From NCBI GenBank assembly GCA_019508105.1, contig JAEKMB010000112.1:1-12517 (forward strand): a stretch of DNA of 12,517 nt, in the 5' to 3' direction. Positions within the stretch are counted from its first letter, which is position 1. Every line of letters starts with the position of its first letter. The translations under genes and the position numbers were made by a program. The stretch is from Alphaproteobacteria bacterium (GTDB taxonomy: Bacteria; Pseudomonadota; Alphaproteobacteria; Micropepsales; Micropepsaceae). Under the pieces are notes generated by a model. It did not search any database. It was not told the DNA's origin and was given only the letters and a program-made list of their open reading frames with translations. Of this stretch, positions 2 through 12,517 are shown piece after piece.

Positions 2-880
2 AATGTCTATGCCCAGGATTTGCCGGTGCCCGGTTTCACCTCCGAGCTGACCGCAGTCTACAACATGAACCGTGAAGCCGATAACATTCACACCGACTTT
101 AACGGTTTTCCCTCGCGTCCGGCGCTGCTCGGCGACATCCGTCCGCGCGACTATGACGCCGTCTATCTAGGCTATTCCGGCGATGGCCATTGGGGCGACA
201 TCAACCTGACCGTCACCGGCTATGGTGTGCTGGGCGAGGACCGCAACAATCTCTTCACCAGCCGTCCCGCGGATATTTCCGGCTACTTCTTCGCCGTCGA
301 ACCGTCGATGGATTTTGACTGGATCCGGGTGCGGCTGTCGGGGCTCTATGCCTCGGGCGACGACAATCCCTATGACGATCATGAAGGCGGCTTCGACGCC
401 ATCTTCGAAAACCCGCAATTTGCCGGCTCCGACACCAGCTACTGGATCCGCCAGTCGGTCCCGTTCGCCGGCGGCGGCCGCGCCATCTTCCTCAACAGCC
501 GCAACGGCGTGCTCAATGATTTGCGCTCGTCCAAGGAAGAGGGCCAGTCCAACTTCAACAATCCCGGCACCATCCTGCTCGGCGGGGGCGTGGACTTCGA
601 CGTGCTGCCCGAATTGCGGGTGGCCGCCAACGTCAATCACCTGTGGTTTGCCGACACGACCCTGGTGCAGACGCTGCGCCAGGAAGGCACCATCTCCCAG
701 GATCTGGGCTGGGATACGTCGCTGGCGCTGACCTATCGTCCCTGGCTGAACCAGAACATCGTGTTCCGGGCCTCGGGCGCGGTGCTGTCGCCGGGGCCGG
801 GCTTTGGTGACCTGTTCACCAACTCCAGCCATGACGGCCAATATTATTCAATGCTGTTCAACGCAATTCTCACTTTCTAG
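2..880 (+). CDS. Outer-membrane beta-barrel (porin-like) protein, C-terminal part
   Basis: The reading frame is open at the left edge, so the N-terminus and any signal peptide are missing; 292 residues remain, ending in TAG. The sequence alternates short amphipathic strands rich in Tyr, Trp, Phe and Gly with polar loops rich in Asp and Asn (for example the stretch with ASGDDNPYDDHEGGFDA). It ends in a strand finishing ..NAILTF; a C-terminal Phe is the usual BAM-recognition signature of outer-membrane barrels. It looks like the large alginate-export-type porins, but I cannot assign a substrate. It contains no CXXCH motif and does not look like an MtrB/PioB sheath. Only 5 nt separate it from the decaheme cytochrome gene at 886, so the two are probably co-transcribed. 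The inferred role is as outer-membrane partner of that cytochrome. Barrel assignment is fairly secure; function is not. Confidence 0.75.
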   Translation, partial: NVYAQDLPVPGFTSELTAVYNMNREADNIHTDFNGFPSRPALLGDIRPRDYDAVYLGYSGDGHWGDINLTVTGYGVLGEDRNNLFTSRPADISGYFFAVEPSMDFDWIRVRLSGLYASGDDNPYDDHEGGFDAIFENPQFAGSDTSYWIRQSVPFAGGGRAIFLNSRNGVLNDLRSSKEEGQSNFNNPGTILLGGGVDFDVLPELRVAANVNHLWFADTTLVQTLRQEGTISQDLGWDTSLALTYRPWLNQNIVFRASGAVLSPGPGFGDLFTNSSHDGQYYSMLFNAILTF

Positions 881-885
881 GGCGC

Positions 886-3800
886 ATGACGGCGGGCTGG
901 CACAAGAAGGCACTGTTGCTGGCGGCTCTGGCCCTGCTGGCGGGCGCTGCCACGACGCGTCTGCTGGCCGGCGATGAAGATGTCGCGGTCGAACGCACTT
1001 ACGCCAGGACGCCGGACGCGCCGCGCGGTCAGAGCCAGGCCGAAGCCGATGCCAAGAGCGCCGGCTGCATTTCCTGCCACAGCGCATCGGATGCGCCGTC
1101 CATGCATGACAATCAGGCGGTGCTGCTGGGCTGCGCCGACTGCCATGGCGGCGACGCCACAGTGAAAGCGGCCGCCGGATTGGCCAAGACCGATCCGCAA
1201 TATGCCAGCCTCCGCGACAAGGCCCATGTGCTGCCGCGCTATCCGCAGAATTGGCACTATCCCAGCTCCGCCAACCCCAAGGAAAGCTACACCCTGTTGA
1301 ACCGCGAGGCGCCCGAATATGTGCGCTTCGTCAATCCCTCGGATTACCGGGTGGCGCGCGAATCCTGCGGCGCCTGTCACATGGACCAGATCACCGCGGC
1401 GGAACGCTCACTGATGGCGACCGGCGCCATGTTCTATGAGGGCGCTTCCTATAATAACGGCATCGTGCCCTTGAAGGGGGCTTTCGACAATGTGCTCGAC
1501 CCGTCGCTGAAGGGCGTGGGGATCGGCGAGGCCTATACCCGCACCGGTGAGCCGGCCAAGGTGGTGTCGCCCGGTGCGCCGCCCGGCACCATCACCGAAG
1601 AGCAGAAGAAACGCGGCGCCTTGACGGCGCTGATCCCGCTGCCGACCTGGCAGGTGGTGCCGCCCGGCGACATTTTCCGCGTCTTCGAGCGCGGCGGCCG
1701 CAACATCGGCACGGAATTTCCCGAAATCGGCCTGCCCGATTCCACCGGCTCCATCCAGCGGCTGGAAGAGCCGGGCCGCCCCGACATCAAGCAATCCAAC
1801 CGCGGCCCCGGCACCGGGCTGCGCGTCGCCATTCCCATCCTCAATATCCACAAGACCCGCCTTAACGATCCCTTTATGTGGTTCATGGGCACCAATGACC
1901 AGCCGGGCGATTATCGCCAGTCAGGCTGCGCCGGCTGCCATGTGATTTACGCCAACAGCCGCGAGCCGCGCGAAAGCTCGGTCTATGCCCAGCATGGCCG
2001 GGACGGCAAAAGCCAGACCGTGGATCCCACCATCAACAAGGACGAATCGGGCCATCCCATCAAGCACCAGTTCACCCGCGCCATTCCGACCGCCCAGTGC
2101 ATGAATTGCCACATGCACCAGCCCAACATGTTCCTGAACACCTATCTTGGCTACACCATGTGGGACTATGAATCCGACGCGCCGTCCATGTGGCCCAAGG
2201 AGCAGAAATATCCCACCTCCGAAGAGATGCGCAAAGTCCTGGACCGCAACCCGGAAGGCGCCGCCCCGCGCGGCAAATGGGCGGACGTGGATTTCCTGCG
2301 CAGTGTCTATGATCTGAACGACAAGCTGAAGGACACCCAGTTCGCCGATTACCACGGCCATGGCTGGAACTTCCGCGCCATCTTCAAGCGCGACCGCGAC
2401 GGCAACCTGCTGGACAAGGACGGCAAGGTGGTGGCCAACGACGATCCGGAGAAGTGGCGCAGGAAGGGCGTGGGCAAGTTCGCGCCGGTGGGCGTCAATC
2501 CCGGCAAGGCGGTGCACATGATGGATATCCATGCCGAAAAAGGCATGCAGTGTTCGGATTGCCATTTCGCCCAGGACAGCCATGGCAGCGGACTGATCAT
2601 GGGCGAAGTCGCCAATGCAGTCGAAATCGGCTGCAAGGACTGCCATGGTACAGTATCGGCTTTTCCGACCCTGAAGACCTCCGGACCCGCCGCGCCGCCT
2701 GGCGGCACCGACCTCTCGCAATTGCGCAATCAGGACGGCAGCCGCCGCTTCGAATGGTCCGAAGATGGCGGGCGCCGCGTGCTGCTCCAGACCTCATCGC
2801 TGGATCCGTCGCTGAAGTGGAAAGTGTCCCTGGTCAAGGACACGGTTGATCCGTTGAGTCCCAACTATAACGAGAAGGAAGCCCGCGCCAAGCTGATGGC
2901 CCGCACCAGCGACAACGGCAAGCAGATGCAATGGGGCCCGGGGGTGCAGCAGGCCAACCTGGCGCACAAGGACAGCGAGATGGCCTGCTTTACTTGCCAC
3001 ACCTCCTGGACCACATCCTGCGGCGGCTGCCATTTGCCGATCGAGGCCAACTGGAAGACCGACAGCCACAAGTATGATGGCCAGACCGCCCGCAACTACG
3101 CCACCTACAATCCGCAAGTGGCGCGTGACGACATGTTCCAGCTGGGCGTCCACTCCACCATCAAGGGCAACGAGATCGCGCCGGTGCGCTCAAGCTCGGC
3201 GCTGATCCTCAGTTCCACCAATCTCAACCGCGACCGGATCTATGTGCAGCAGCCGCCGATCTCGGCATCGGGTTTCTCCAGCCAGGCCTTTGCGCCGCAC
3301 TTCCCGCACACCGTGCGCACCACCGAGACCAAGACCTGCAGCGATTGCCATGTCTCGGCCGCCAATGACAATAATGCGATTATGGCGCAGCTGCTGCTGC
3401 TGGGCACAAACTTCGTCAACTTTGTCGGCATGAATGCCTGGACCGGCCTGGAAGGCGGTATCGAGGCAGTGCGCGTCACCGAATGGAACGAACCCCAGGC
3501 GGTGTTCGGCTCTTATTTGCAGAAATACGCCTATCCCGACTATTACAAGGCCCATGTCGAGCGCAACAAGCGCGAGCTGGTGGATTGGCGGCGCGGCGAC
3601 ATCTTCGGCAAGGGCGACACCAATGTCGAAGACATTTTCAATGTCACCCATTCCACGCCCGATGCGGTGCGCTGCCTGCAACTGCGCGGTGAATATCTCT
3701 ATACCGCGCAAGGCGCGGGCGGTTTCCAGGTCCTGGACGTGGCCAGCATCGCCAACAAGGACATCTCCCAGAAGATGATCACCGCGCCTTTCTCGCCCTT

Positions 3801-4908
3801 GGGCCAGCGGGTGCGCGTGCCGTCAAAGAACGCCACATGCATGGCGCTCCCCACCGGCCAATCCATCGCGCCTGAGCGCAACACGGCCGAGATGCGCAAA
3901 TTCAACGAGGAACAGCCGTTCCACCCGATCTACAACTACGCTTTTGTCACCGATGCCGAAGAAGGCCTGATCCTGGTAGACGTCAACACCTTCAATGACC
4001 GCAATCCGCGCAACAACAACATCCGCCGCGCCCTCACCTGGAATCCGGACGGGGTTCTGAACGGCGCGCGCCATATCACCCTGGGCGGCTCTTACGCCTA
4101 TATTGCCACGCCGCGCGGGCTGGTGGTGGTGGACCTGGGCGATCCGATGAAGCCCAGAGTGGCCGCGCAGGTGGCACTGCCCGACATGCGCGCCTCAGCA
4201 TTGCAGTTCCGCTACCTGTTCGTCACCGATGCCCGCGGGCTCGAAGTGCTGGACGTCACCAGGATGGACCAGCCGAAGGCGATCAATGGCGCCCGTTTCC
4301 TGTTGGATGACGCCCGCCGCGTCTATGTGGCGCGCACCTATGCCTATGTCGCCGCCGGCAAGGACGGGCTGGTGATTCTCGACGTCAAGAATCCGGAGAA
4401 GCCGCGCGCCTATTGGAACAAGCCGTTCGAGAATGCCGATAGCCAGGACGTGATCGTGGGCTCCACCAACGCTTCGCTGTTCGCTTATGTCGCTGACGGC
4501 AGGAACGGCTTGAAGGTGCTGCAGCTCACCAGTCCGGAAAGCCAACCCAACTTCTACGGTTTCTCGCCGCCGCCCAAGCCGGAAGTGATTGCCTGGGCGA
4601 AGACGCCGACGCCGGCGCTGGCTCTGTCCAAGGGCCTGGACCGCGACCGCGCCGTGGACGAGACCGGCAACCAGATCGCTGTCTTCGGGCGGCTGGGCTC
4701 GCGCCCCTTCCACCGCGACGAGATGGAAAAGTTCTTTGTGGACTGGAAGGGCCAGCAATACCGCGTCAGCGACGAACTTGTGAAAGCCGACTTTGTCGGA
4801 TTGCCCGACCAGCGCGGGGCTCCGGTACAGGCCGATGACCGGAACAAAAAGTCCGGTCCGCCGCGCCGTGATGTCAGCGTCCACCCCAAGAAAATGGCGC
4901 GCAACTGA
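886..4908 (+). CDS. Exported decaheme cytochrome c with C-terminal LVIVD-type beta-propeller
   Basis: A 1340-residue protein. The ATG at 886 directly precedes a signal peptide (basic GWHKK, then a Leu/Ala core to about residue 28) without a lipobox Cys, so it should be secreted by Sec. Ten CXXCH heme-binding motifs start at residues 61, 83, 161, 348, 405, 556, 583, 701, 712 and 818. Other His residues nearby could be distal ligands. Residues about 925-1216 carry no CXXCH but repeat a pattern of an aromatic/Val strand followed by G-L-hydrophobic-V-L-D-V (VLDV, ILVDV, VVVDL, VLDV, VILDV), typical of LVIVD beta-propeller repeats. The last ~120 residues are polar and basic. It starts 5 nt after the barrel gene and probably forms a complex with it, in the periplasm or at the outer membrane, passing electrons between inner-membrane carriers and outside acceptors or donors. 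An enzymatic role (octaheme-oxidoreductase-like) is an alternative. The heme count is seen directly; partners are inferred. Confidence 0.9.
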   Translation: MTAGWHKKALLLAALALLAGAATTRLLAGDEDVAVERTYARTPDAPRGQSQAEADAKSAGCISCHSASDAPSMHDNQAVLLGCADCHGGDATVKAAAGLAKTDPQYASLRDKAHVLPRYPQNWHYPSSANPKESYTLLNREAPEYVRFVNPSDYRVARESCGACHMDQITAAERSLMATGAMFYEGASYNNGIVPLKGAFDNVLDPSLKGVGIGEAYTRTGEPAKVVSPGAPPGTITEEQKKRGALTALIPLPTWQVVPPGDIFRVFERGGRNIGTEFPEIGLPDSTGSIQRLEEPGRPDIKQSNRGPGTGLRVAIPILNIHKTRLNDPFMWFMGTNDQPGDYRQSGCAGCHVIYANSREPRESSVYAQHGRDGKSQTVDPTINKDESGHPIKHQFTRAIPTAQCMNCHMHQPNMFLNTYLGYTMWDYESDAPSMWPKEQKYPTSEEMRKVLDRNPEGAAPRGKWADVDFLRSVYDLNDKLKDTQFADYHGHGWNFRAIFKRDRDGNLLDKDGKVVANDDPEKWRRKGVGKFAPVGVNPGKAVHMMDIHAEKGMQCSDCHFAQDSHGSGLIMGEVANAVEIGCKDCHGTVSAFPTLKTSGPAAPPGGTDLSQLRNQDGSRRFEWSEDGGRRVLLQTSSLDPSLKWKVSLVKDTVDPLSPNYNEKEARAKLMARTSDNGKQMQWGPGVQQANLAHKDSEMACFTCHTSWTTSCGGCHLPIEANWKTDSHKYDGQTARNYATYNPQVARDDMFQLGVHSTIKGNEIAPVRSSSALILSSTNLNRDRIYVQQPPISASGFSSQAFAPHFPHTVRTTETKTCSDCHVSAANDNNAIMAQLLLLGTNFVNFVGMNAWTGLEGGIEAVRVTEWNEPQAVFGSYLQKYAYPDYYKAHVERNKRELVDWRRGDIFGKGDTNVEDIFNVTHSTPDAVRCLQLRGEYLYTAQGAGGFQVLDVASIANKDISQKMITAPFSPLGQRVRVPSKNATCMALPTGQSIAPERNTAEMRKFNEEQPFHPIYNYAFVTDAEEGLILVDVNTFNDRNPRNNNIRRALTWNPDGVLNGARHITLGGSYAYIATPRGLVVVDLGDPMKPRVAAQVALPDMRASALQFRYLFVTDARGLEVLDVTRMDQPKAINGARFLLDDARRVYVARTYAYVAAGKDGLVILDVKNPEKPRAYWNKPFENADSQDVIVGSTNASLFAYVADGRNGLKVLQLTSPESQPNFYGFSPPPKPEVIAWAKTPTPALALSKGLDRDRAVDETGNQIAVFGRLGSRPFHRDEMEKFFVDWKGQQYRVSDELVKADFVGLPDQRGAPVQADDRNKKSGPPRRDVSVHPKKMARN

Positions 4909-4915
4909 CGGTCAG
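4905..4915. other. Convergent gene junction with mirrored stop codons
   Basis: The forward cytochrome gene stops with TGA at 4906-4908 and the reverse phosphoesterase gene with TGA at 4914-4912, leaving 3 nt between them. The two stops lie in an 11-nt inverted repeat, CTGAC-G-GTCAG. The arms do not extend and no T-run follows, so I do not read it as an intrinsic terminator. Transcripts from the two strands may overlap here. Confidence 0.5.
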
Positions 4916-5751
4916 CCAGTTTTGGCCTGATCGTTGATGAACGGTACTTCGTAAGTCACCGCCGCCGGGAAATCGCCGGCCGGGCAGGCATGCATCACAA
5001 GCTCGCCCTTATCCCACACCAAAAGCATGAAGCCGGGCGCGCGCTCGGTCAGAAGCTCGCGATGATCGGGCACCCTGAGGTCGATCGGGCTGAGATCCAG
5101 CGTCAGCTGGATAGAGGTGGCGGTCGATACCTGCACCAAGTGACCGGCAAAGATGCCGCTGAAGGCGCGGTGCATATGGCCGCAAACGAGGCCGCGGATC
5201 TGGTTCTGGCCGCGAATGACATTGGCCAGCCGCACCTTCCAGGGGGCATCCGCCGCCTCGTCCATCCAGACGATGCCGCTGGCGATCGGCGGGTGGTGCA
5301 GTGCCAGCAGGGTGGGGGTGTCCGGCGCTTCGGCCAGGGTCCTGGCCAGCCAGGTGGCGCGCTTCTCGCAGAAGCCGCCATGCTCCTTGCCGTCCAGCGT
5401 GTCGCACATCACCACCCGGAGATCGCCCAGCATGAAGGCATATTGGACAAAGCCGTTCTCATCCACCGGCGTGGCGGGCAGGGCCTTGCGGAAGGCGGGC
5501 CGGGAATCGTGATTGCCGATGCCGTAATAGATAGGGATTTCGCAGGATGCGAGGATCTGCTTCAGCTCTTCATATTCGTCGGCCTGACCCAGATCCACCA
5601 AGTCGCCGGTGGCCAGGATGGCGGAGGGCCGCGGCTTCATCGCATAGATGGATTTGAGCACGGTGCGCAGCCGGGCGGCGTTGCGCGCCCGGTCCACAGG
5701 CTGGCTGCCGTTGGTGATGTGCAGGTCGGTGATTTGCGCAATGGTCAGCAC
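4912..5751 (-). CDS. CpdA/GpdQ-like metallophosphoesterase (predicted cyclic-nucleotide phosphodiesterase)
   Basis: A 279-residue soluble protein without signal peptide. It has every metal-ligand motif of the calcineurin-like class III phosphodiesterases, in order: D9-x-H11 (ITDLH), G-D50 (ATGDLVD), GNHD (N80, H81, D82), H152/H153 (ALHHPP) and GHMH (H192, H194). The length fits CpdA (3',5'-cAMP phosphodiesterase) and GpdQ (glycerophosphodiesterase); motifs alone cannot separate them. Translation starts at GTG 5751, because the ATG at 5760 is followed two codons later by an in-frame TAA. A GGAG lies 11 nt upstream of the GTG. The gene sits 95 nt downstream of the FHA-decaheme gene, so it may be read with that operon or from its own promoter. 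Since the operon's first product carries two cyclic-nucleotide-binding domains, a role in lowering the ligand is attractive but inferred. Catalytic class confident; substrate not. Confidence 0.85.
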   Translation of the reverse strand: MLTIAQITDLHITNGSQPVDRARNAARLRTVLKSIYAMKPRPSAILATGDLVDLGQADEYEELKQILASCEIPIYYGIGNHDSRPAFRKALPATPVDENGFVQYAFMLGDLRVVMCDTLDGKEHGGFCEKRATWLARTLAEAPDTPTLLALHHPPIASGIVWMDEAADAPWKVRLANVIRGQNQIRGLVCGHMHRAFSGIFAGHLVQVSTATSIQLTLDLSPIDLRVPDHRELLTERAPGFMLLVWDKGELVMHACPAGDFPAAVTYEVPFINDQAKTG

Positions 5752-5792
5752 TTAAGTCATTTCTCCGGAGGCCGGCACTCCCTAACCCCTTG

Positions 5793-5822
5793 ATAATACA
5801 CGGCCGCCGCAAAAGGGCACAA
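5793..5822 (-). promoter_or_regulatory. Possible sigma70-type promoter for the phosphoesterase gene
   Basis: In the 95-nt gap, reading the reverse strand, TTGTGC (5822-5817) is followed after 18 nt by TATTAT (5798-5793), a 5-of-6 match to the -10 consensus. It lies about 30 nt upstream of the GGAG at 5766-5763 and about 40 nt from the GTG start. It is one of the few AT-rich spots in this GC-rich DNA. It could let the phosphoesterase be expressed separately from the electron-transfer genes. The assignment rests only on consensus and spacing. Confidence 0.25.
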
Positions 5823-5846
5823 AGGCAGCAAGCAGAATACGCAAGA

Positions 5847-7745
5847 CTAGTGTGTTCGGATCAAGGCGTTCTGCGCCAATTGCCGGGCCCTGGGCGAGGC
5901 GGGCAATCCGGGATTGTGGAATCCGTGGCATTCGGCGCAATCGGCGCCTGCCGCGGTCGGGGTCGCAGCCTTGGTCTTGCCGTGGCAGGTGCCGCATTCG
6001 GCGATCCTGGGCAGCAGCACATCCTGGGAGACCTTGGAGCTTTCAGCCTTGTGGCAGGACTTGCAGGTTTCCGCGCCACTGGCGTCCTTATGATGCTCGG
6101 GCACATTGTGGTTGAAGTCGCCCCAGGGCAGGTAGCGGGCGGTCAGGCGCACCGGCTGGATCCTGTATTCAAGCGAGCCGGCGGGCGGCTTGAAGAAAGT
6201 GTGGCAGGTGGTGCAGGTGCCGCCGCGCTCGAAGGCGGCGCGCACACTGTCGGCAACATAATCGGCCGGCCGGCCGGCGCGGGGCGTGCCGCGCGCGAGG
6301 CCGGGGCGCCCGATAAAGAGCTCAGGCCCGGCTGAGAAATTGGGCTGGTTGGCATAGTAAAGTTTCAACTGGGCCACGACCTCGCTGGGCCGGCCATGCT
6401 TCAATTGTTGATCCACGCCGTTTTTGCGCGCGAAGGCCAGCGAGTGGCAGATGCCGCAATCCTTCGGCATGTCGATCTTGCCGAAGCCGCCATCGGGTGA
6501 CGGCTTGTGGCAATTGGCGCAAGTGAGCGGCCCGCCATAGCCGCCGGCCTTGCCCAGCTCCACCCCCTGGCGCGCCACGCCGCCCGTGGCGCTCAAATGC
6601 ACGTCATGGCCGAAGATCAGGCCGTTTTTTTGGGTTGGGTTCATCGCCAGGTCGGTCTTCACCAGCACGGGCTTGCCACCCTGAAAGCCGGTGATGATGA
6701 CGGGACGGAAATCGGGATGGCGTCCCCAGTCGGGCACATCTCGCAGGAAGGTGGGCGCACCGGCTGCGGCCATGCGCGCCGCCATACCGGTATGGCAGTC
6801 CTTGCAGTCATTGCGCTTGATCTGGTCCGGGGTCACGAGCGGATGTCCAGCGCCGGCCATCGCCTTGCCGTTGCCGACATGCTCGGTGTGGCAACTGGCG
6901 CAGCGATTGCTGGGATGAGAGAAGTTATTGGCGATCCATGTGTTGATGCGCCGCGCCATATTGGGGTCGGGCGGGGCGGCGGCCATCAGGCGGGCATGGC
7001 TGGCATGCTCGGCGGCGGGGTCGGGGGGAAAGGCGCTTCCCAGTTCGCGCGTCCGCAATTCGATTTGCGCCGCGGCCAGTCTGTTCAATCCCGCCTGATG
7101 ACAGGAAAGGCACGCGCTGTCCTTCACCGAGACAAAGGCCTGCTGGTGGCAGGCCTTGCAATTCTTTTCCAGAAAATGATGGCCCGGCGACAAAGGGCCG
7201 CTGGACCATTGGCGGTGGGCAGCGGCCGGGATCATGCGATGCTGGTGAAGGTCCAGCACGAACACGCCGACGGGAAAGACCAGGCAAGCCAGAAGGATCA
7301 ACAGGCCGGTGATCCAGGCCAGCCGGCGCGGGCTGAACAGCGCATATTTCAGCGAGAAGGCGCGCTTGTGGTCGTCGCCGGCGGCGGTGGCGGCGATATT
7401 TTCCCGCGCCGTGGCCAGCACCAGCACCGCGCCGTTTTCGCCGGCCGACAAGGTGAGCACATGGCTGCCGAAGCCCAGCACCGGCGAATCCGCCAGGGCC
7501 AGGCTGGCATTATGGACGAATTTGCCATTGGCTTCGAAATTCTCGTTGCCCAGAGCCTCTACCACCACGCGGCCCGGGCCGCTTTGCTTGAGCACGGCAT
7601 GGCGCAGGCTGACGGCGAGGTCGGTAAGCTGGATATCGCAATCGCTGCCGCGTCCGATCACCGGCTCGGCCGCGGCCAAGGGCTTTTCGCGCACGATGTC
7701 GGGGGCACCGACGCGCTTGCTGATCTGGCGCAGGATAAAGCTCAT
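5847..7745 (-). CDS. FHA domain - transmembrane - decaheme cytochrome c fusion
   Basis: A 632-residue protein in three parts. Residues about 1-110 form an FHA domain: GR at 31-32 (VIGRGSDCDIQL), S46/H49 (SLRH) and an NG at 73-74, the residues that shape the phosphothreonine pocket. After a basic stretch (HKRAFSLKY, SPRR) comes one hydrophobic helix, about 142-166; by the positive-inside rule the FHA domain is cytosolic and the rest periplasmic. Residues 196-607 contain ten CXXCH heme motifs, starting at 196, 212, 282, 314, 409, 430, 511, 561, 584 and 603. ATG 7745 lies 4 nt after the TGA of the b-cytochrome gene, with GAGG just upstream, so the two are probably translationally coupled. Inferred role: takes electrons from the b cytochrome and passes them to periplasmic carriers, with its cytosolic end reading a Ser/Thr-kinase signal. 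No kinase is encoded in this window. Domains are clear; direction and partners are inferred. Confidence 0.88.
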   Translation of the reverse strand: MSFILRQISKRVGAPDIVREKPLAAAEPVIGRGSDCDIQLTDLAVSLRHAVLKQSGPGRVVVEALGNENFEANGKFVHNASLALADSPVLGFGSHVLTLSAGENGAVLVLATARENIAATAAGDDHKRAFSLKYALFSPRRLAWITGLLILLACLVFPVGVFVLDLHQHRMIPAAAHRQWSSGPLSPGHHFLEKNCKACHQQAFVSVKDSACLSCHQAGLNRLAAAQIELRTRELGSAFPPDPAAEHASHARLMAAAPPDPNMARRINTWIANNFSHPSNRCASCHTEHVGNGKAMAGAGHPLVTPDQIKRNDCKDCHTGMAARMAAAGAPTFLRDVPDWGRHPDFRPVIITGFQGGKPVLVKTDLAMNPTQKNGLIFGHDVHLSATGGVARQGVELGKAGGYGGPLTCANCHKPSPDGGFGKIDMPKDCGICHSLAFARKNGVDQQLKHGRPSEVVAQLKLYYANQPNFSAGPELFIGRPGLARGTPRAGRPADYVADSVRAAFERGGTCTTCHTFFKPPAGSLEYRIQPVRLTARYLPWGDFNHNVPEHHKDASGAETCKSCHKAESSKVSQDVLLPRIAECGTCHGKTKAATPTAAGADCAECHGFHNPGLPASPRARQLAQNALIRTH

Positions 7746-7749
7746 CGCC

Positions 7750-8522
7750 TCACCAGAAGAAGAAGACGCTGAAGATGTGCGCGGTAAGCGCAGCGATCAG
7801 CGCAAGGGTGGTGGGGACATGTATGAACAGCCAGACTTCCAGCAGGCTGCGCAGGCGAATGTGACGGCGCGCCTTGGCCAAGGTGGCGCTCTTTTCTTCT
7901 AACAAGGTCGGCACCTGGTCCAGCGCGGTGGCCTGCGGTCCGTCGGACATTCGCGTGTGGGCAGCCAGCAGCGCGCGCTGGGCATTGGCGGTGGCGCAGT
8001 CAGCAGGCGGCCGTCCAGGGCATGGATCTTTTCCAGCATCTGCTTTTGGGTGGTCTCGCCGCGATTGTCGGACAGGATGGGCGGAATTTTGGCATAGACG
8101 GTGATGCCGAACACGCCAGACAGGATCACCAGCATCATCAGCGCATAGGCCAGGGTGTGGATGTTCCAGCCGAACTGCAAGCCGCTATGCAAGGTGGCGA
8201 TCACGATCAGCGACAGGCCCAGATAGACATGGGCCGAGACCCAGGCCTTGAGCAACCAGGTATCATCGGTCATGGCGCGCTTGCGTATCCCCAGCAAGGC
8301 CAGCCACACGATCAGGCCGGCGCCCAAGGTGCCGCTGGCATAGCCGAACCAGCTTGAGCCGGTATGGCGCAGGCGAAAGTCCGCCGTCATCAAGGTGGCG
8401 GTAAAACCGGCGATCACCAGCAGGCTGACCAATACCGCGGCCTTCAGCCAGCGAAAATGGGCATGACGCAGGAAGCTCTCATGCGCGGCGGCAGCCTTTG
8501 CTCTTTGCCGTTGCTGGGCCAA
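7750..8522 (-). CDS. Diheme b-type cytochrome membrane protein, interrupted by a frameshift
   Basis: Two overlapping frames together make one gene. The first (8522-7899) starts with TTG 8522, 3 nt after the stop of the upstream oxidoreductase. It gives four hydrophobic helices (about residues 27-46, 60-80, 94-115, 122-145) but ends in an implausible Pro/Arg/Cys-rich tail. The second frame (open across about 8000 and ending at TGA 7750) supplies a soluble helix-rich linker and a final helix, LLEVWLFIHVP..TAHIF. Helix 3 has H98 and H112, 14 residues apart. The last helix also has two His 14 apart (codons 7821-7819 and 7779-7777). Four His on two helices with this spacing is the usual arrangement for two stacked b hemes. 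Restoring the frame needs one extra base (or loss of two) near 8000. The inferred role is moving electrons across the inner membrane between the ferredoxin-containing enzyme and the decaheme protein. It could be a pseudogene, a sequence error or recoded. Confidence 0.7.
7988..8004 (-). other. Probable frameshift position in the b-cytochrome gene
   Basis: On the coding strand the upstream frame reads ..DGRLLT up to about 7998; the downstream frame reads ..CATANAQRALLAAH from about 7997. Adding one base at ACT|GCGCC would join them as LLT-C-ATANAQ. The exact point is uncertain because both frames are open for about 100 nt. There is no homopolymer and no standard -1 slippery heptamer here, which argues against both a simple homopolymer miscall and classical programmed slippage. 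Confidence 0.55.
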
Positions 8523-8525
8523 GGT

Positions 8526-11072
8526 CTAACGCCCGCCTTGCTTGACGACATCAAGGAACTGTTCCGGCGACACGCGGATGGCGGCGCCCGTGGGACAGGC
8601 GCGCACACAAGCCGGCCCGCCGCTTTTGCCGGCGCACATGTCGCACTTGATGGCGACTTTGGGTTTCTTGGGATCGTAATGCTTCTTCAGCCAATCCTTG
8701 TCGGGCTCGCCGGGACCGGGCCCGACACCGAACAGCATCCATTGCAGCAGGCCCGGTTTTTTGGGCGGCACCGAATCCATGCGGATCACGCCATAGGGAC
8801 AATTGCGCTGGCAGTTGCCGCAACCGATGCAGGCGTCGCTGATGAAGACTTCACCGTCCGCGCCGCGCCGGATGGCATTGGGCGGACAGTCGGTCATGCA
8901 ATGGGGCTGCTCGCAATGGCGGCAGGAGGTGGGGACATGCAGATGGGCATAGGTCTTGCCCGCCTCGCGGTTCAGCCGCGACAAGCCGTCATGACTGTCG
9001 GCGCAGGCCTTTTCGCAATTGTCGCAGCCGATGCACAGCGTCTCGTCGATCAACAGCTCATCGGTGGCCTCGCCGATGCCCTGCTTGACCAGGAATTCGT
9101 TGCGCTCCAGCAGTTCGCGGAACAGCCGCCCGTTCAGCCGCACCACCTGGGAGCGCACCGTGGCGCGCACCGTGGCGGTGCGCTTGCCCCGGTCGACCAG
9201 CGCCATTTCCCCGAAATAGGAGCCGGCCGGGATATAGGAGAGGAACACCTGCTTGCCGCCAATGGCTTTTTCCACCGTCATGGAGCCGGAGCGCACAATG
9301 AAGATGTCGTAGATGCCGCCTTCACGTAGCGCTTCGGCCTCGGGCTGCAGCGCCGCCAGTTTTTCGGCTTCGGCGGCTTTTTCCGCGGCGACGCGCGCGG
9401 CAAAGGCTTCCTGGGTCTCGCCCTTGGCGGGCTCGCGGTCGATGCGGGCGCGGGGCGCGCGGGCCAGGAATTCATCGCCGGCATCCTGGCCTTCCTTGAT
9501 CACGCTCTGGCCGGGGCGGATTTCCTCCACCTTGGCGGTCTTGAGGATTTCGGCGATGTCGGCGGCCTGCAGGCCGGAGCCGAAAATCTGCAGCAGGTGG
9601 CGTTCGGTGGTGATGCGGTTGACGGTTTTCTTGGCTTCCTCGTTGGAGCCCATCAGCTTGAGCGCCGCGGTGCGGGGAATTTCCACCACGATGCAATCTT
9701 TGCCGGCGCGGATGGTGGCGCCGCGGCGGCGCCCCGAGATCAGGCCCACTTCGCCGAAGATCGAACCCTGGCCGATCGGGATGGTGATGGACGGATCGTG
9801 CGGATTGATCTCTACCTTGACCGAGCCGGCGGCGATGCCGAACAGCGATGAGCCGATGGCGTTGCGTTCGAAGATCACGTCATTTTCCGCATAGACCTTG
9901 ACGGCGCAGTCCAGCAGGAATTCGCGCATCTGCAGCGGCGACAGGCCCTTGAGAATCTCGACATGATCGCGGAGGAACTCGATCCAGTCGGCCACGCTCT
10001 TCTTGACCGGCACGTCCTTGAGGCGCGCCTCCAGCAGGGGTTCGTCGGCGGGCTTGAGATCGGTGTTGCCGGTGATGAACTCCACCACGTCATAGCCCTG
10101 GTTCATGCAGTGCTTGATCAGGGGATAGCCGGCCAGCGCGCCGATGGCATAGACGCCGGGCACGGTGGTCTCGAATTGCGGGCTGAGCTTGGGGAAGGCA
10201 TCACGCGCCTCACTGGTGAACTGGATGCCGCCCTTCAGTTTGGGGCGACCCTTGTCGTCCAGGTCGGCGGGGTCGGGAGTGGCGCCGACCGATTCCACAA
10301 AGCCGCGCGGCGCTGCCGAACCCATGCGCGCGATGACGCGGTTGCAGGGCAGGCGGGTTTCGCCCTCGGGCGTCTCGATGGTGATCCAGCCTTCCTCGAT
10401 CTTGGCAGGGCTGGCCTCCGACAGGATGCTGAGACGCCCGGCCTTCTGCGCCTCCATCATCAGCTCGACATTGGCCGCCTTGGCCTTGGAAAAATCCTTG
10501 GAGCGGTTGACAAGGGTGACTGTGTTGCCCTGTTCGGGATCTTCGGCCAGGCCCCGGGCATTCTCGATACCGGCATCGCCGCCGCCGACCACGAAGATAT
10601 GTTCGTCGAAATATTCCCGCGGATCGTCCAGCTGGTACTGGACATGTGGCAGCTTGGCGCCGTCGCAGCGCACTAGGTTGGGATTTCCTTGCGTGCCAAT
10701 GGCCATGATGATGGTTTCGGCCTTGACCACATCACCGCTGGTCAGGGTGATGGTGAAATCGCCCCGGGCGCCGGTGACCGACTTGACGTCGGCCTTGTAG
10801 CGGACATTGGCCTTGGCGGTGGCGGTCTGCTTGTTCCAGTTTTCCAGAATGGCTTCGCGCTTGCCCGCATCGAAGCTGCAGTCGGAGCGCAAGGTGAGGC
10901 TGACGGGCGTCGCCATCACATGCTTGCCCTTCTGGTAGCGGTAGATGGTGTCGGAGAGATGGTCGGTCTTTTCCAACAGCACATGGCTGAGCCCGCGCGC
11001 AGCAGCGCGGTTGGCCGCGCTCATACCCGCCGGCCCAGAGCCGATAATGGCGATCTGAAAAGCTTCCGACAC
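8526..11072 (-). CDS. FAD/NAD(P) oxidoreductase fused to two cyclic-nucleotide-binding domains and a four-cluster ferredoxin
   Basis: About 850 residues; numbering here counts from an alternative TTG at 11093. I prefer GTG 11072 (codon 8), giving [13 protein letters not shown] with GGGG 6 nt upstream. Domains in order: thioredoxin-reductase-like fold with FAD motif GSGPAG (18-23) and NAD(P) motif VGGGDAG (169-175), but no CXXC redox pair; cyclic-nucleotide-binding domain 1 (about 377-495; E448 and R457 in FGEVG..RRRGAT); domain 2 (about 500-670; E629 and R638 in FGEMAL..KRTAT), which holds an Ala/Glu-rich insert at about 541-590; and a DmsB/NrfC-type ferredoxin with four cysteine quartets (687/690/693/697, 724/727/732/736, 755/758/761/765, 817/820/829/833). 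There is no signal peptide or membrane helix, so it is cytosolic. Inferred role: passes electrons between NAD(P)H and the membrane b cytochrome encoded 3 nt downstream, gated by a cyclic nucleotide. It is the first gene of the operon. Confidence 0.9.
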
Positions 11073-11188
11073 GACTATCCCCGCCCCATCCAAAGCCCGT
11101 CAAAGGCCCGGATTATTTAATTATTTCACAGCCCTGCGGGGTACGCTAGGGTCGCCGGACAGGGTGTGACGGGCTATTGCAAGGGACC
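11073..11188. promoter_or_regulatory. Divergent intergenic region between the oxidoreductase operon and ccmF
   Basis: About 115 nt separate the preferred GTG start of the reverse operon from the ATG of ccmF. At 11111-11129 is a run of almost only A and T (gattatttaattatttc), which stands out in this GC-rich DNA and is the likely promoter core for one or both directions. I could not fit a convincing -35/-10 pair on either strand. No terminator or structured RNA family is recognisable. Confidence 0.4.
11126..11169. repeat. Imperfect inverted repeat upstream of ccmF
   Basis: TCACA-G-CCCTG at 11126-11136 is matched by CAGGG-TGTGA at 11160-11169: ten paired bases with one bulged G, and an inner CGG/CCG pair (11137-11139 with 11155-11157). 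It ends 19 nt before the ccmF ATG. It could be a hairpin in the ccmF leader or a binding site; the outer TCACA/TGTGA pentamers equal CRP-family half-sites but are too far apart (34 nt) for one ordinary CRP dimer. No function is demonstrated. Confidence 0.35.
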
Positions 11189-12517
11189 ATGGCGGCGGAA
11201 ATCGGACAATTGGCGCTGGTGCTGGCATTTGTGCTGGCGGCCGTGCAGTCAGTGGCCCCTTTCTGGGGGGCTGCCCGGCGGGACCCCGCGCTAATGGGGC
11301 TGGGCCGGACCACCGCCTTGCTGCAACTGGTTTTTGTCGGTCTGGCCTTTGCCAGCCTGGCCGCCGGTTTTGTGGGCAAGGATTTCTCCATCGCGCTGGT
11401 GGCCCAGCACAGCAACGCCGCCCAGCCGGCGATTTACCGGTTCGCCGCCACCTGGGGCAGCCATGAAGGCTCCATGCTGTTGTGGGTCTTGATCCTGGCG
11501 CTGCAGGGCGGGGCGGTGGCGCTGTTCGGCGGGCGGCTGCGCGAAACCTTGCAGGCGCGGGTGCTGGGGGTGCAGGGCATCATCGGCACCGCTTTCCTGG
11601 GGTTTTCGCTGTTCACCTCCAATCCCTTTCTGCGGCTGTTTCCCGCTGCCGCCGACGGAACCGAGTTGAACCCGCTGCTGCAGGATCCGGGCCTCGTTTT
11701 TCATCCCCCCATGCTCTATCTGGGCTATGTCGGGTTTTCCTCGGCTTTTTCCTTCGCCATGGCAGGCCTGATCGAAGGCCAGGTGGATGCGGGCTGGGCG
11801 CGCTGGATCCGGCCCTTTGTGCTGGCGTCCTGGATCTGTCTGACCGCCGGCATCACCATGGGCAGCATCTGGGCCTATTACACTTTGGGCTGGGGCGGCT
11901 GGTGGTTCTGGGATCCGGTGGAGAACGCTTCCCTGATGCCCTGGCTGATGGGCACGGCGCTTTTGCATTCCTCCATCGCGCTGGAGCGGCGCGGCGCCTT
12001 GATCAGCTGGACCATATTGCTGGCGATCCTGACTTTCTCACTGAGCCTGATCGGCACCTTCCTGGTGCGTTCCGGTGTGCTGACCAGCGTGCACGCTTTT
12101 GCAGTGGATCCGCGGCGCGGCATCTACATACTGGGCATTATTGCCTTGGCCACCGGCACGGCGCTGGGCCTGTTCGCCTGGCGGGCCCCGGCCATGCGCA
12201 CCGGGGCGCTGTTCCAACCGCTGTCGCGCGAAGGCGGTCTTGCCGTCAACAACCTGTTCTTGATGGCGGCCACCGCCACGGTGTTCCTGGGGACTTTCTA
12301 TCCGGTGTTTGTGGAGATCGCCGGCGGCCATTCTATCTCGGTGGGACGGCCTTATTACGAGCTGACTTTTGTTCCTGTGGTGGTGCCGCTGCTGATCCTG
12401 GTCAGCTTCGGGCCCATGCTGAACTGGAAGCGCAATGCCCTGCGCGAAGTGCTGACGCGGCTGCGCTGGTCCTTGATCCTATCAGGCTTGGCTCTGCTAT
12501 TTGGCGTGCTGGCCTTT
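11189..12517 (+). CDS. ccmF: Cytochrome c-type biogenesis protein CcmF (heme lyase subunit), 3' truncated
   Basis: The frame stays open to the window end: 443 of roughly 650 residues. The start ATG 11189 has AAGGGA just upstream, and MAAEIGQLALVLAFVLA is the typical CcmF N-terminus. Family landmarks: TWGSHEGSMLLW (H92), FHPPMLYLGY (H172), the WWD heme-handling motif WGGWWFWDPVEN (235-246), H260, and VRSGVLTSVHAF (H302). The protein is almost entirely transmembrane helices. CcmF, with CcmH (and CcmI where present), takes heme from holo-CcmE and attaches it to the CXXCH cysteines of apocytochromes on the periplasmic side. That fits the neighbourhood, which encodes twenty c-type heme sites. It is transcribed away from the oxidoreductase operon; ccmG/ccmH-type genes may follow outside the window. 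The missing C-terminus is only the window edge. Confidence 0.95.
   Translation, partial: MAAEIGQLALVLAFVLAAVQSVAPFWGAARRDPALMGLGRTTALLQLVFVGLAFASLAAGFVGKDFSIALVAQHSNAAQPAIYRFAATWGSHEGSMLLWVLILALQGGAVALFGGRLRETLQARVLGVQGIIGTAFLGFSLFTSNPFLRLFPAAADGTELNPLLQDPGLVFHPPMLYLGYVGFSSAFSFAMAGLIEGQVDAGWARWIRPFVLASWICLTAGITMGSIWAYYTLGWGGWWFWDPVENASLMPWLMGTALLHSSIALERRGALISWTILLAILTFSLSLIGTFLVRSGVLTSVHAFAVDPRRGIYILGIIALATGTALGLFAWRAPAMRTGALFQPLSREGGLAVNNLFLMAATATVFLGTFYPVFVEIAGGHSISVGRPYYELTFVPVVVPLLILVSFGPMLNWKRNALREVLTRLRWSLILSGLALLFGVLAF

Follow-up and report, generated by a model that had tools for sequence, protein, structure and literature searches.

Two gene sets already in print lie close to the system described here. 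PCC4, a genome-based proposal (He et al. 2017, PMC5566968), is given in the available text of that paper as a porin with multiheme cytochromes (MHCs) of 4, 5 and 10 hemes, none of them extracellular. Its inner-membrane protein holds two WX3HX13H motifs and an SGXXG motif, with a pfam13247 Fe-S gene upstream in Subgroup II; PCC4 is present in the genomes of iron oxidisers, and electron flow was modelled to the quinone pool (PMC5566968). The second is the first group of clusters in the Sterkfontein metagenome-assembled genomes (MAGs; PMC13264449, 2026), for which the portion of the text at hand lists eleven clusters with a decaheme gene of 4-5 kb beside a porin of about 20 strands and, for 7 of the 11, a ferredoxin-NADP+ reductase gene in the vicinity. 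Here, a conserved seven-gene set is described that was traced from a single contig (JAEKMB010000112.1; C61 of genome G000) of a Micropepsaceae MAG (1.75 Mb, 62% complete). The whole contig, 12,517 bases, was analysed and is referred to as the window. The locus encodes a real, conserved and probably NAD(P)H-linked electron pathway of the cell envelope, and we put the chance that it is an NAD(P)H-coupled conduit from the cytosol to the outer membrane at roughly 60%.

The seven genes encode an FAD oxidoreductase with two cyclic nucleotide monophosphate (cNMP)-binding domains and four [4Fe-4S] motifs (FADFeS), a diheme b-type inner-membrane protein (cytochrome b), an FHA-domain decaheme (FHAcyt), a c554-like pentaheme (c554), an HbpS-type lipoprotein, an AlgE-like barrel, and a decaheme cytochrome c with C-terminal LVIVD repeats (MHC10). 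The original prediction, made from the letters of the window, was of a complete conduit of five genes in sequence. Its five parts are there, but they are split between two operons that converge on a phosphodiesterase-like gene: FADFeS, cytochrome b and FHAcyt on the minus strand, the barrel and MHC10 on the plus strand. Nor is the conduit complete in the window, where the contig end truncates the barrel and cytochrome b has a broken frame; two of the seven genes (c554 and the HbpS lipoprotein, the latter cut by a contig end) are on contig C233 of the same genome. The window takes in the full contig, from a MAG that is 62% complete, and so only the last 292 residues of the barrel are available. 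Besides the two C233 genes, the cNMP-binding domains, the FHA domain, the LVIVD repeats and the phosphodiesterase-like gene had been overlooked.

The soluble NAD(P)H-FAD-FeS protein of the original prediction was confirmed at positions 8526-11093 of the minus strand (855 aa), with a likely GTG start at 11072 inside the frame that opens at 11093. By a simple hydropathy scan, which was used for all transmembrane (TM) helix counts, FADFeS has no TM helix. Its flavoprotein part is thioredoxin-reductase-like with a second, NAD(P)-type Rossmann site, the two cNMP-binding domains scored 102.6 bits, and 16 cysteines, equal to four cluster motifs, are invariant across 24 aligned rows. The protein matches PF13247 (43.9 bits, cut-off 26.2), and its gene is directly upstream of cytochrome b. 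Since an arginine follows the second Rossmann strand, NADPH would be preferred over NADH. A role as a thioredoxin-disulfide reductase was rejected, as no CXXC occurs within the first 330 residues in any of the 24 rows. The N-terminal flavoprotein shares the fold of thioredoxin-reductase-like ferredoxin-NADP+ reductases and YpdA, and the C-terminal four-cluster domain resembles Fe-S subunits of the DmsB/HydN type; unlike either, FADFeS is fused to two cNMP-binding domains, and its flavoprotein part lacks the CXXC.

The predicted diheme b cytochrome is present as a b-type membrane protein (7749..8522, minus strand), but its frame is open only from 8522 to 7899. Relative to locus L008 a 109-nt deletion breaks the frame and leaves the second heme-binding helix in another one, while the gene is intact in L008 and the other aligned relatives. 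Compared with the same locus, the window FADFeS gene shows a gap of 117 nt that keeps the frame; a pair of gaps like these within a single MAG contig may reflect a collapse in the assembly, with real decay as the other possibility. Across 19 rows the two WX3HX13H motifs and the SGXXG motif are invariant (W94/H98/H112, S135-G136-G139 and W267/H271/H285 in L008 numbering). Four TM helices were counted in the L008 protein, versus five in the available text on PCC4 (PMC5566968). In two genomes outside the class that carry the same genus label, a single open reading frame (L143 9850-13203, 1118 aa; L144 3052-6420, 1123 aa) joins FADFeS to the b-type protein and is followed by an FHAcyt relative with nine CXXCH; no outer-membrane gene of the set was found in these two stretches. 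The fusion, perhaps one event, is the best evidence that FADFeS hands electrons directly to the b-type protein.

FHAcyt (5847..7745, minus strand) bears out the membrane-anchored ten-heme protein, with exactly ten CXXCH. An FHA domain was detected at its N-terminus (31.5 bits) and a single TM helix at residues 148-166, from which the FHA domain would be cytosolic and the hemes periplasmic. In 31 rows of 25-80% identity to the window, the ten motif histidines and exactly ten other histidines are invariant. The residues that bind phosphopeptides are less even (Ser in 7 of the 31 rows, Arg in all, His in 24), and phosphothreonine control through this domain appears doubtful because the serine is kept in so few.

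MHC10 (886..4908, plus strand; 1340 aa, LVIVD repeats at 72.4 bits) is the exported ten-heme protein that had been predicted, its ten CXXCH confirmed. Ten motif histidines and thirteen others are invariant across 37 rows; as all ten motifs are invariant in both MHC10 and FHAcyt, their number is not due to chance, and the extra invariant histidines of MHC10 may leave room for other roles. The only hydrophobic segment is N-terminal and signal-like (residues 9-27). This segment agrees with the prediction of an exported cytochrome, but the placement of MHC10 at the cell surface is something we infer for a protein that has no lipobox and sits beside an AlgE-like barrel. MHC10 was rejected as a homolog of MtrC (PF22113, MtrC/MtrF domain II/IV, 26.4 bits against a cut-off of 30) and of ExtM (NCBIfam ExtM model, 61.7 bits against 800). 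The family profile matched no Protein Data Bank (PDB) sequence at E<=0.1, and the AlphaFold model of the heme part (residues 30-880) had a predicted local distance difference test score (pLDDT) of 44.

The outer-membrane barrel of the original prediction is represented by its C-terminus (2..880, plus strand), the 5' end being lost at the contig end. The family has a median length of 639 aa; a full-length barrel had no Pfam match at E<=0.01, and the family profile had no PDB match. Fold searches pointed to 18 strands and an AlgE/OprD-like architecture, and no MtrB entry was among the matches listed in two such searches; the barrel is predicted to be an AlgE-like 18-strand pore and not an MtrB-like sheath. 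Upstream of it in relatives lie c554, with four CXXCH and one CX4CH (likewise in the C233 copy), and a protein with HbpS-like domains, 49 of whose 53 members hold a lipobox pattern. In c554, five motif histidines and five others are invariant over 26 rows. Since c554, the HbpS lipoprotein, the barrel and MHC10 are consecutive in the named loci, a porin lies beside a periplasmic MHC gene. These counts agree with bis-His electron-transfer hemes, some 27 in all when the two b hemes are added, and the arithmetic of hemes and Fe-S clusters is compatible with a wire.

In order to assess distribution, the best 80 of 257 loci from a scan of named genomes for MHC10 were kept (the named loci). These are mostly labelled Caulobacterales, Sphingomonadales or unplaced Alphaproteobacteria, with isolates of Sphingobium, Novosphingobium and Brevundimonas among them. 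Presence was counted by tblastn; where GC content was low or genes were short, the GC-based gene caller skipped some of them (L140, L129 and several cytochrome b genes). Among 385 genomes of the class, MHC10 was found in 29 (one of them, G030, with a gene fragment only) and FADFeS in 36; every MHC10 carrier was FADFeS-positive (29/29), and seven genomes had FADFeS only. Among 398 genomes of the phylum, which have three carriers in common with the class sample, the counts were 11 and 15, again with all carriers FADFeS-positive (11/11) and four genomes with FADFeS only. Matches in G170, G274 and G770, with one internal stop each, were counted as present. Fisher tests that ignore phylogeny gave p = 2e-37 and 2e-18, respectively. 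Co-conservation had been named as the check on the original prediction, rare co-occurrence being what would speak against it, and these counts came out in its favor.

The genes are also close together. For 25 of the 29 class carriers, a single contig contained both FADFeS and MHC10, at a distance of no more than about 15 kb. Within the named loci, FADFeS lay in the fetched stretch of 36; 24 of the other 44 were searched genome-wide, and FADFeS was found outside the stretch in all 24. Where enough upstream sequence was available, the barrel was beside MHC10 in 72/72 named loci, the HbpS lipoprotein was present in 64/65 and c554 in 61/62, with L046 the exception both times. Downstream, FADFeS, cytochrome b and FHAcyt were found in 34 of the 61 named loci with at least 9.5 kb of sequence. 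The window's own genus is patchy, with MHC10 in 4 of 25 genomes (the window's included), which suggests that loss or transfer is common. A plasmid collection held 12 Sphingobium records and one Sphingopyxis record with most of MHC10, and the Sphingobium herbicidovorans plasmid pMSHV (L107), typed as conjugative, carries the whole set. Upstream of the set on pMSHV are genes for a Crp/Fnr regulator, CHAT and a CHASE2-cyclase and a two-partner secretion pair; among the 80 named loci, 12 have TpsB-like genes. Homologs of both decahemes include proteins labelled Rhizomicrobium sp.; a member of that genus, R. electricum, was reportedly isolated from a microbial fuel cell, to judge from the title of a paper.

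Gene order was compared across 14 distant MHC10 loci. Thirteen (L111-L123) were taken from those 25 class carriers in which FADFeS and MHC10 share a contig, a choice that gives no measure of the frequency of split sets, and one (L140) is from outside the class. Twelve of the 14 have FADFeS, cytochrome b, FHAcyt, HbpS, barrel and MHC10 on one strand and in that order. L118 (continued in L146) keeps the set together with FADFeS after MHC10, so that the genes are one-strand neighbours in 13 of 14; L119 is a short contig that begins within the barrel. In eight of the 14, c554 was inside the fetched stretch.

Loci with FADFeS and no MHC10 were more varied. In L126, L127 and L130, c554 was accompanied by a pentaheme and another porin (the c554 gene of L127 and L130 being cut by the end of the stretch); in L125 and L129 only c554 was added, L124 had a contig edge inside HbpS, and L128 had FADFeS alone. 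From outside the class, L141 held the three inner genes, L142 had FADFeS with neither cytochrome b nor FHAcyt near by, and L145 (continued in L147) had the inner genes with HbpS and the barrel, running almost to the end of the contig, in a genome where MHC10 was not found.

From the cofactor motifs, the gene order, the co-occurrence and the FADFeS-b fusion in two genomes, all of them read at the level of sequence, a path can be proposed in which the order of carriers beyond the fusion, the crossing of the outer membrane and the outward direction are what we infer. Electrons from NAD(P)H would pass to FAD and then to four [4Fe-4S] clusters, all within soluble FADFeS. The clusters would reduce the two b hemes, carrying electrons across the inner membrane to the ten c hemes of the anchored periplasmic FHAcyt and from there to the five c hemes of periplasmic c554. 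This cytochrome would deliver them to the outer membrane, with its AlgE-like barrel and HbpS-type lipoprotein, and thence to the ten c hemes of MHC10, at or outside that membrane. The NAD(P)H step would be gated by the two cNMP-binding domains; in many genomes the locus includes or adjoins a class III cyclase and a phosphodiesterase-like gene. Weighing against this conduit is the barrel itself, whose 18 predicted strands seem to offer no obvious room for an MtrA-like plug.

The same barrel bears on an alternative that we regard as unlikely, namely a periplasmic reducing system with no link to the surface, in which electrons from NAD(P)H would go to an acceptor or enzyme in the periplasm, either MHC10 itself or one for heme or iron handling together with HbpS, and the barrel would be a solute pore. 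An AlgE/OprD-like barrel would suit such a system, as would the missing lipobox of MHC10, its 13 rather than 10 extra invariant histidines, and the occurrence of the inner module in some genomes with no outer genes near by. Yet in nearly all named loci MHC10 is still accompanied by the barrel and the lipoprotein, and three cytochromes with 25 hemes seem excessive for one periplasmic reductase.

The chain might also run the other way, inward from Fe(II), Mn(II) or another external donor to the quinone pool or NAD(P)+. Inward flow was proposed for PCC3 and PCC4 found in iron-oxidiser genomes, and the b-type protein has the motifs that He et al. read as quinone-active, at least in the available text (PMC5566968). 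Uptake nevertheless appears improbable: soluble FADFeS, with an NAD(P)-type Rossmann site, adjoins or is fused with the b-type protein, so that NAD(P)H is the likely cytosolic partner; transfer from Fe(II) to NAD(P)+ would, on general grounds, need an input of energy; and many of the named carriers belong to heterotrophic genera. Least of all do we favor a surface device like an NAD(P)H oxidase (NOX), making superoxide or reducing Fe(III) or Cu(II) for assimilation rather than respiration, a very remote prospect even with an NAD(P)H/FAD donor and an HX13H b-heme layout common to ferric reductases and NOX in the text available (PMC5566968). Many carriers also belong to aerobic genera. Against such a device, NOX and ferric reductases are not known to use MHCs, and no iron-uptake gene was recognised beside the locus, a weak point with under half of forty neighbour clusters identified.

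Gating of FADFeS by a cyclic nucleotide would draw on the two binding domains and on the genes around the set. The first site fits a simple phosphate-cassette pattern in all 24 rows and the second in 12. A CHASE2-type cyclase gene was found in 25 of the 80 named loci by profile (27 by tblastn); in L008 a different gene, TPR-S/cyclase, precedes c554, and on C233 of the window's own genome a fragment with a class III nucleotide cyclase domain does so. The gene between the two operons of the window (4912..5751, minus strand) encodes a calcineurin-like phosphoesterase of the cyclic-nucleotide phosphodiesterase-like (SpdA/CpdA) kind, with metal motifs present; it scored 133.1 bits against SpdA (2',3'-cyclic-nucleotide; cut-off 400) and 98.1 bits against 3',5'-cAMP phosphodiesterase (cut-off 225). 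Homologs occur in 54 of the 80 named loci. The fetched stretches of the 14 distant loci showed none, which limits a local make-and-break circuit to part of the family.

A bolder picture can be offered tentatively. The set may be a cyclic-nucleotide-gated bacterial counterpart of NADPH oxidase. In Alphaproteobacteria that are heterotrophic and for the most part aerobic, it would move electrons from cytosolic NADPH through two membranes and some 27 hemes to the cell surface, with an AlgE-type barrel in place of the MtrB sheath and a second messenger that is made, sensed and broken by products of the locus. Should the conduit reading favored above hold, many soil and water members of the Sphingomonadales and Caulobacterales would have an inherent capacity for outer-membrane electron exchange, which would also be carried on a plasmid typed as conjugative. 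Its direct driver would be NAD(P)H and its switch a second messenger, in place of a supply from the quinone pool.

Beyond the set, the window ends in a gene for a CcmF/NrfE-type heme lyase (11177..12517, plus strand), divergent from FADFeS and cut at its 3' end by the contig end, so that its 511.3 bits against the NrfE model (cut-off 927.3) refer to a truncated gene. It probably serves cytochrome c maturation as an accessory to the set. No Rfam match was found in the window. Among the distant loci, L111 (11918-12367), L114 (11312-11755) and L123 (10298-10720) have FHAcyt and the HbpS lipoprotein separated by a small protein of about 140-150 aa that looks exported, with no Pfam match for the L114 copy, the one tested. 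In the named loci, a thiamine pyrophosphate (TPP)-dependent enzyme of the acetolactate synthase kind lies beside the locus in 30 of 80 (33 by tblastn; for example, L047 1320-4430), an aldehyde dehydrogenase adjoins it in 30 and an NADP-type glutamate dehydrogenase in 21 (23 by tblastn). These three names were assigned by eye and not by profile; the surroundings are possibly a redox-balancing neighbourhood.

With MtrCAB, PioAB and MtoAB the set shares the general plan of a periplasmic cytochrome, an outer-membrane barrel and an outer decaheme. It differs from MtrCAB in its NAD(P)H input, which would take the place of CymA and quinol, and the MtrB barrel has 26 strands as against the 18 predicted here. 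Membership in the Mtr/Pio systems was rejected, with the MtrB/PioB family (PF11854) over its cut-off in one of 48 carriers and PF22113 below its own, and the predicted difference from them holds at the sequence level. Three PF11854 matches at E<=0.001 were found in the 48 carrier genomes, including a weak one in the window's own genome (C71, 18.8 bits). The match over the cut-off (G294:C324, L131; 341.6 bits) is on a contig apart from the set, and an MtrB/PioB-type system and the MHC10 set can coexist in one genome. Because none of 14 control genomes exceeded the cut-off, the sensitivity of this comparison rests on that one hit, and several carriers are incomplete.

The first Sterkfontein group, compared by description only, is alike in that the MHC10 gene is 4.0 kb, the barrel has 18 predicted strands and FADFeS is reductase-like. 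It differs in that the available text gives that group no b-type, FHA, HbpS or cyclic-nucleotide parts, and neither a mechanism nor a taxonomy. Going by that text, this kind of system may already be in print in outline. In the open-licence literature searched, nothing was found on how the inner part is built, on the cyclic-nucleotide domains or the HbpS lipoprotein, or on the co-occurrence, nor any report of an experimental test of PCC4-like or Sterkfontein-like sets; likewise, no paper there combined an FHA domain with an MHC, none pertinent by its title combined LVIVD with a cytochrome, and none was found on Sphingomonadales with an MHC and the outer membrane.

PCC4 is nearest on the inner side. 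As far as the available text defines it, the inner half of the set has its hallmarks, a WX3HX13H/SGXXG protein with a PF13247 gene upstream, and a decaheme and a cytochrome with four CXXCH are also present here. L126, which has a FADFeS homolog, even matches the full composition of 10, 4 and 5 hemes plus porin, and L127 and L130 match it in their porin and in the genes for 10 and 5 hemes. The set itself departs from the 4, 5 and 10 hemes described for PCC4, with 10 and 10 in the window and four CXXCH plus one CX4CH on C233, and the pentaheme and porin are replaced by the HbpS lipoprotein, the AlgE-like barrel and the LVIVD decaheme. The pentahemes of L126 and L130 matched nothing in the window and nothing in the 14 distant MHC10 loci, a profile comparison of MHC10 with a PCC4-like pentaheme showed no relation (9% probability), and hhalign gave 0.8% for the barrel family against the porins of three loci that are PCC4-like by composition only. 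The separate route of the original prediction holds at the sequence level for the outer half, which differs from Mtr/Pio and PCC4 alike, but not for the inner half, which fits the inner-membrane module already proposed for PCC4. If the conduit reading is right, the PCC4 proposal would gain from it a sharper and testable form, that of a reusable inner module with interchangeable outer modules.

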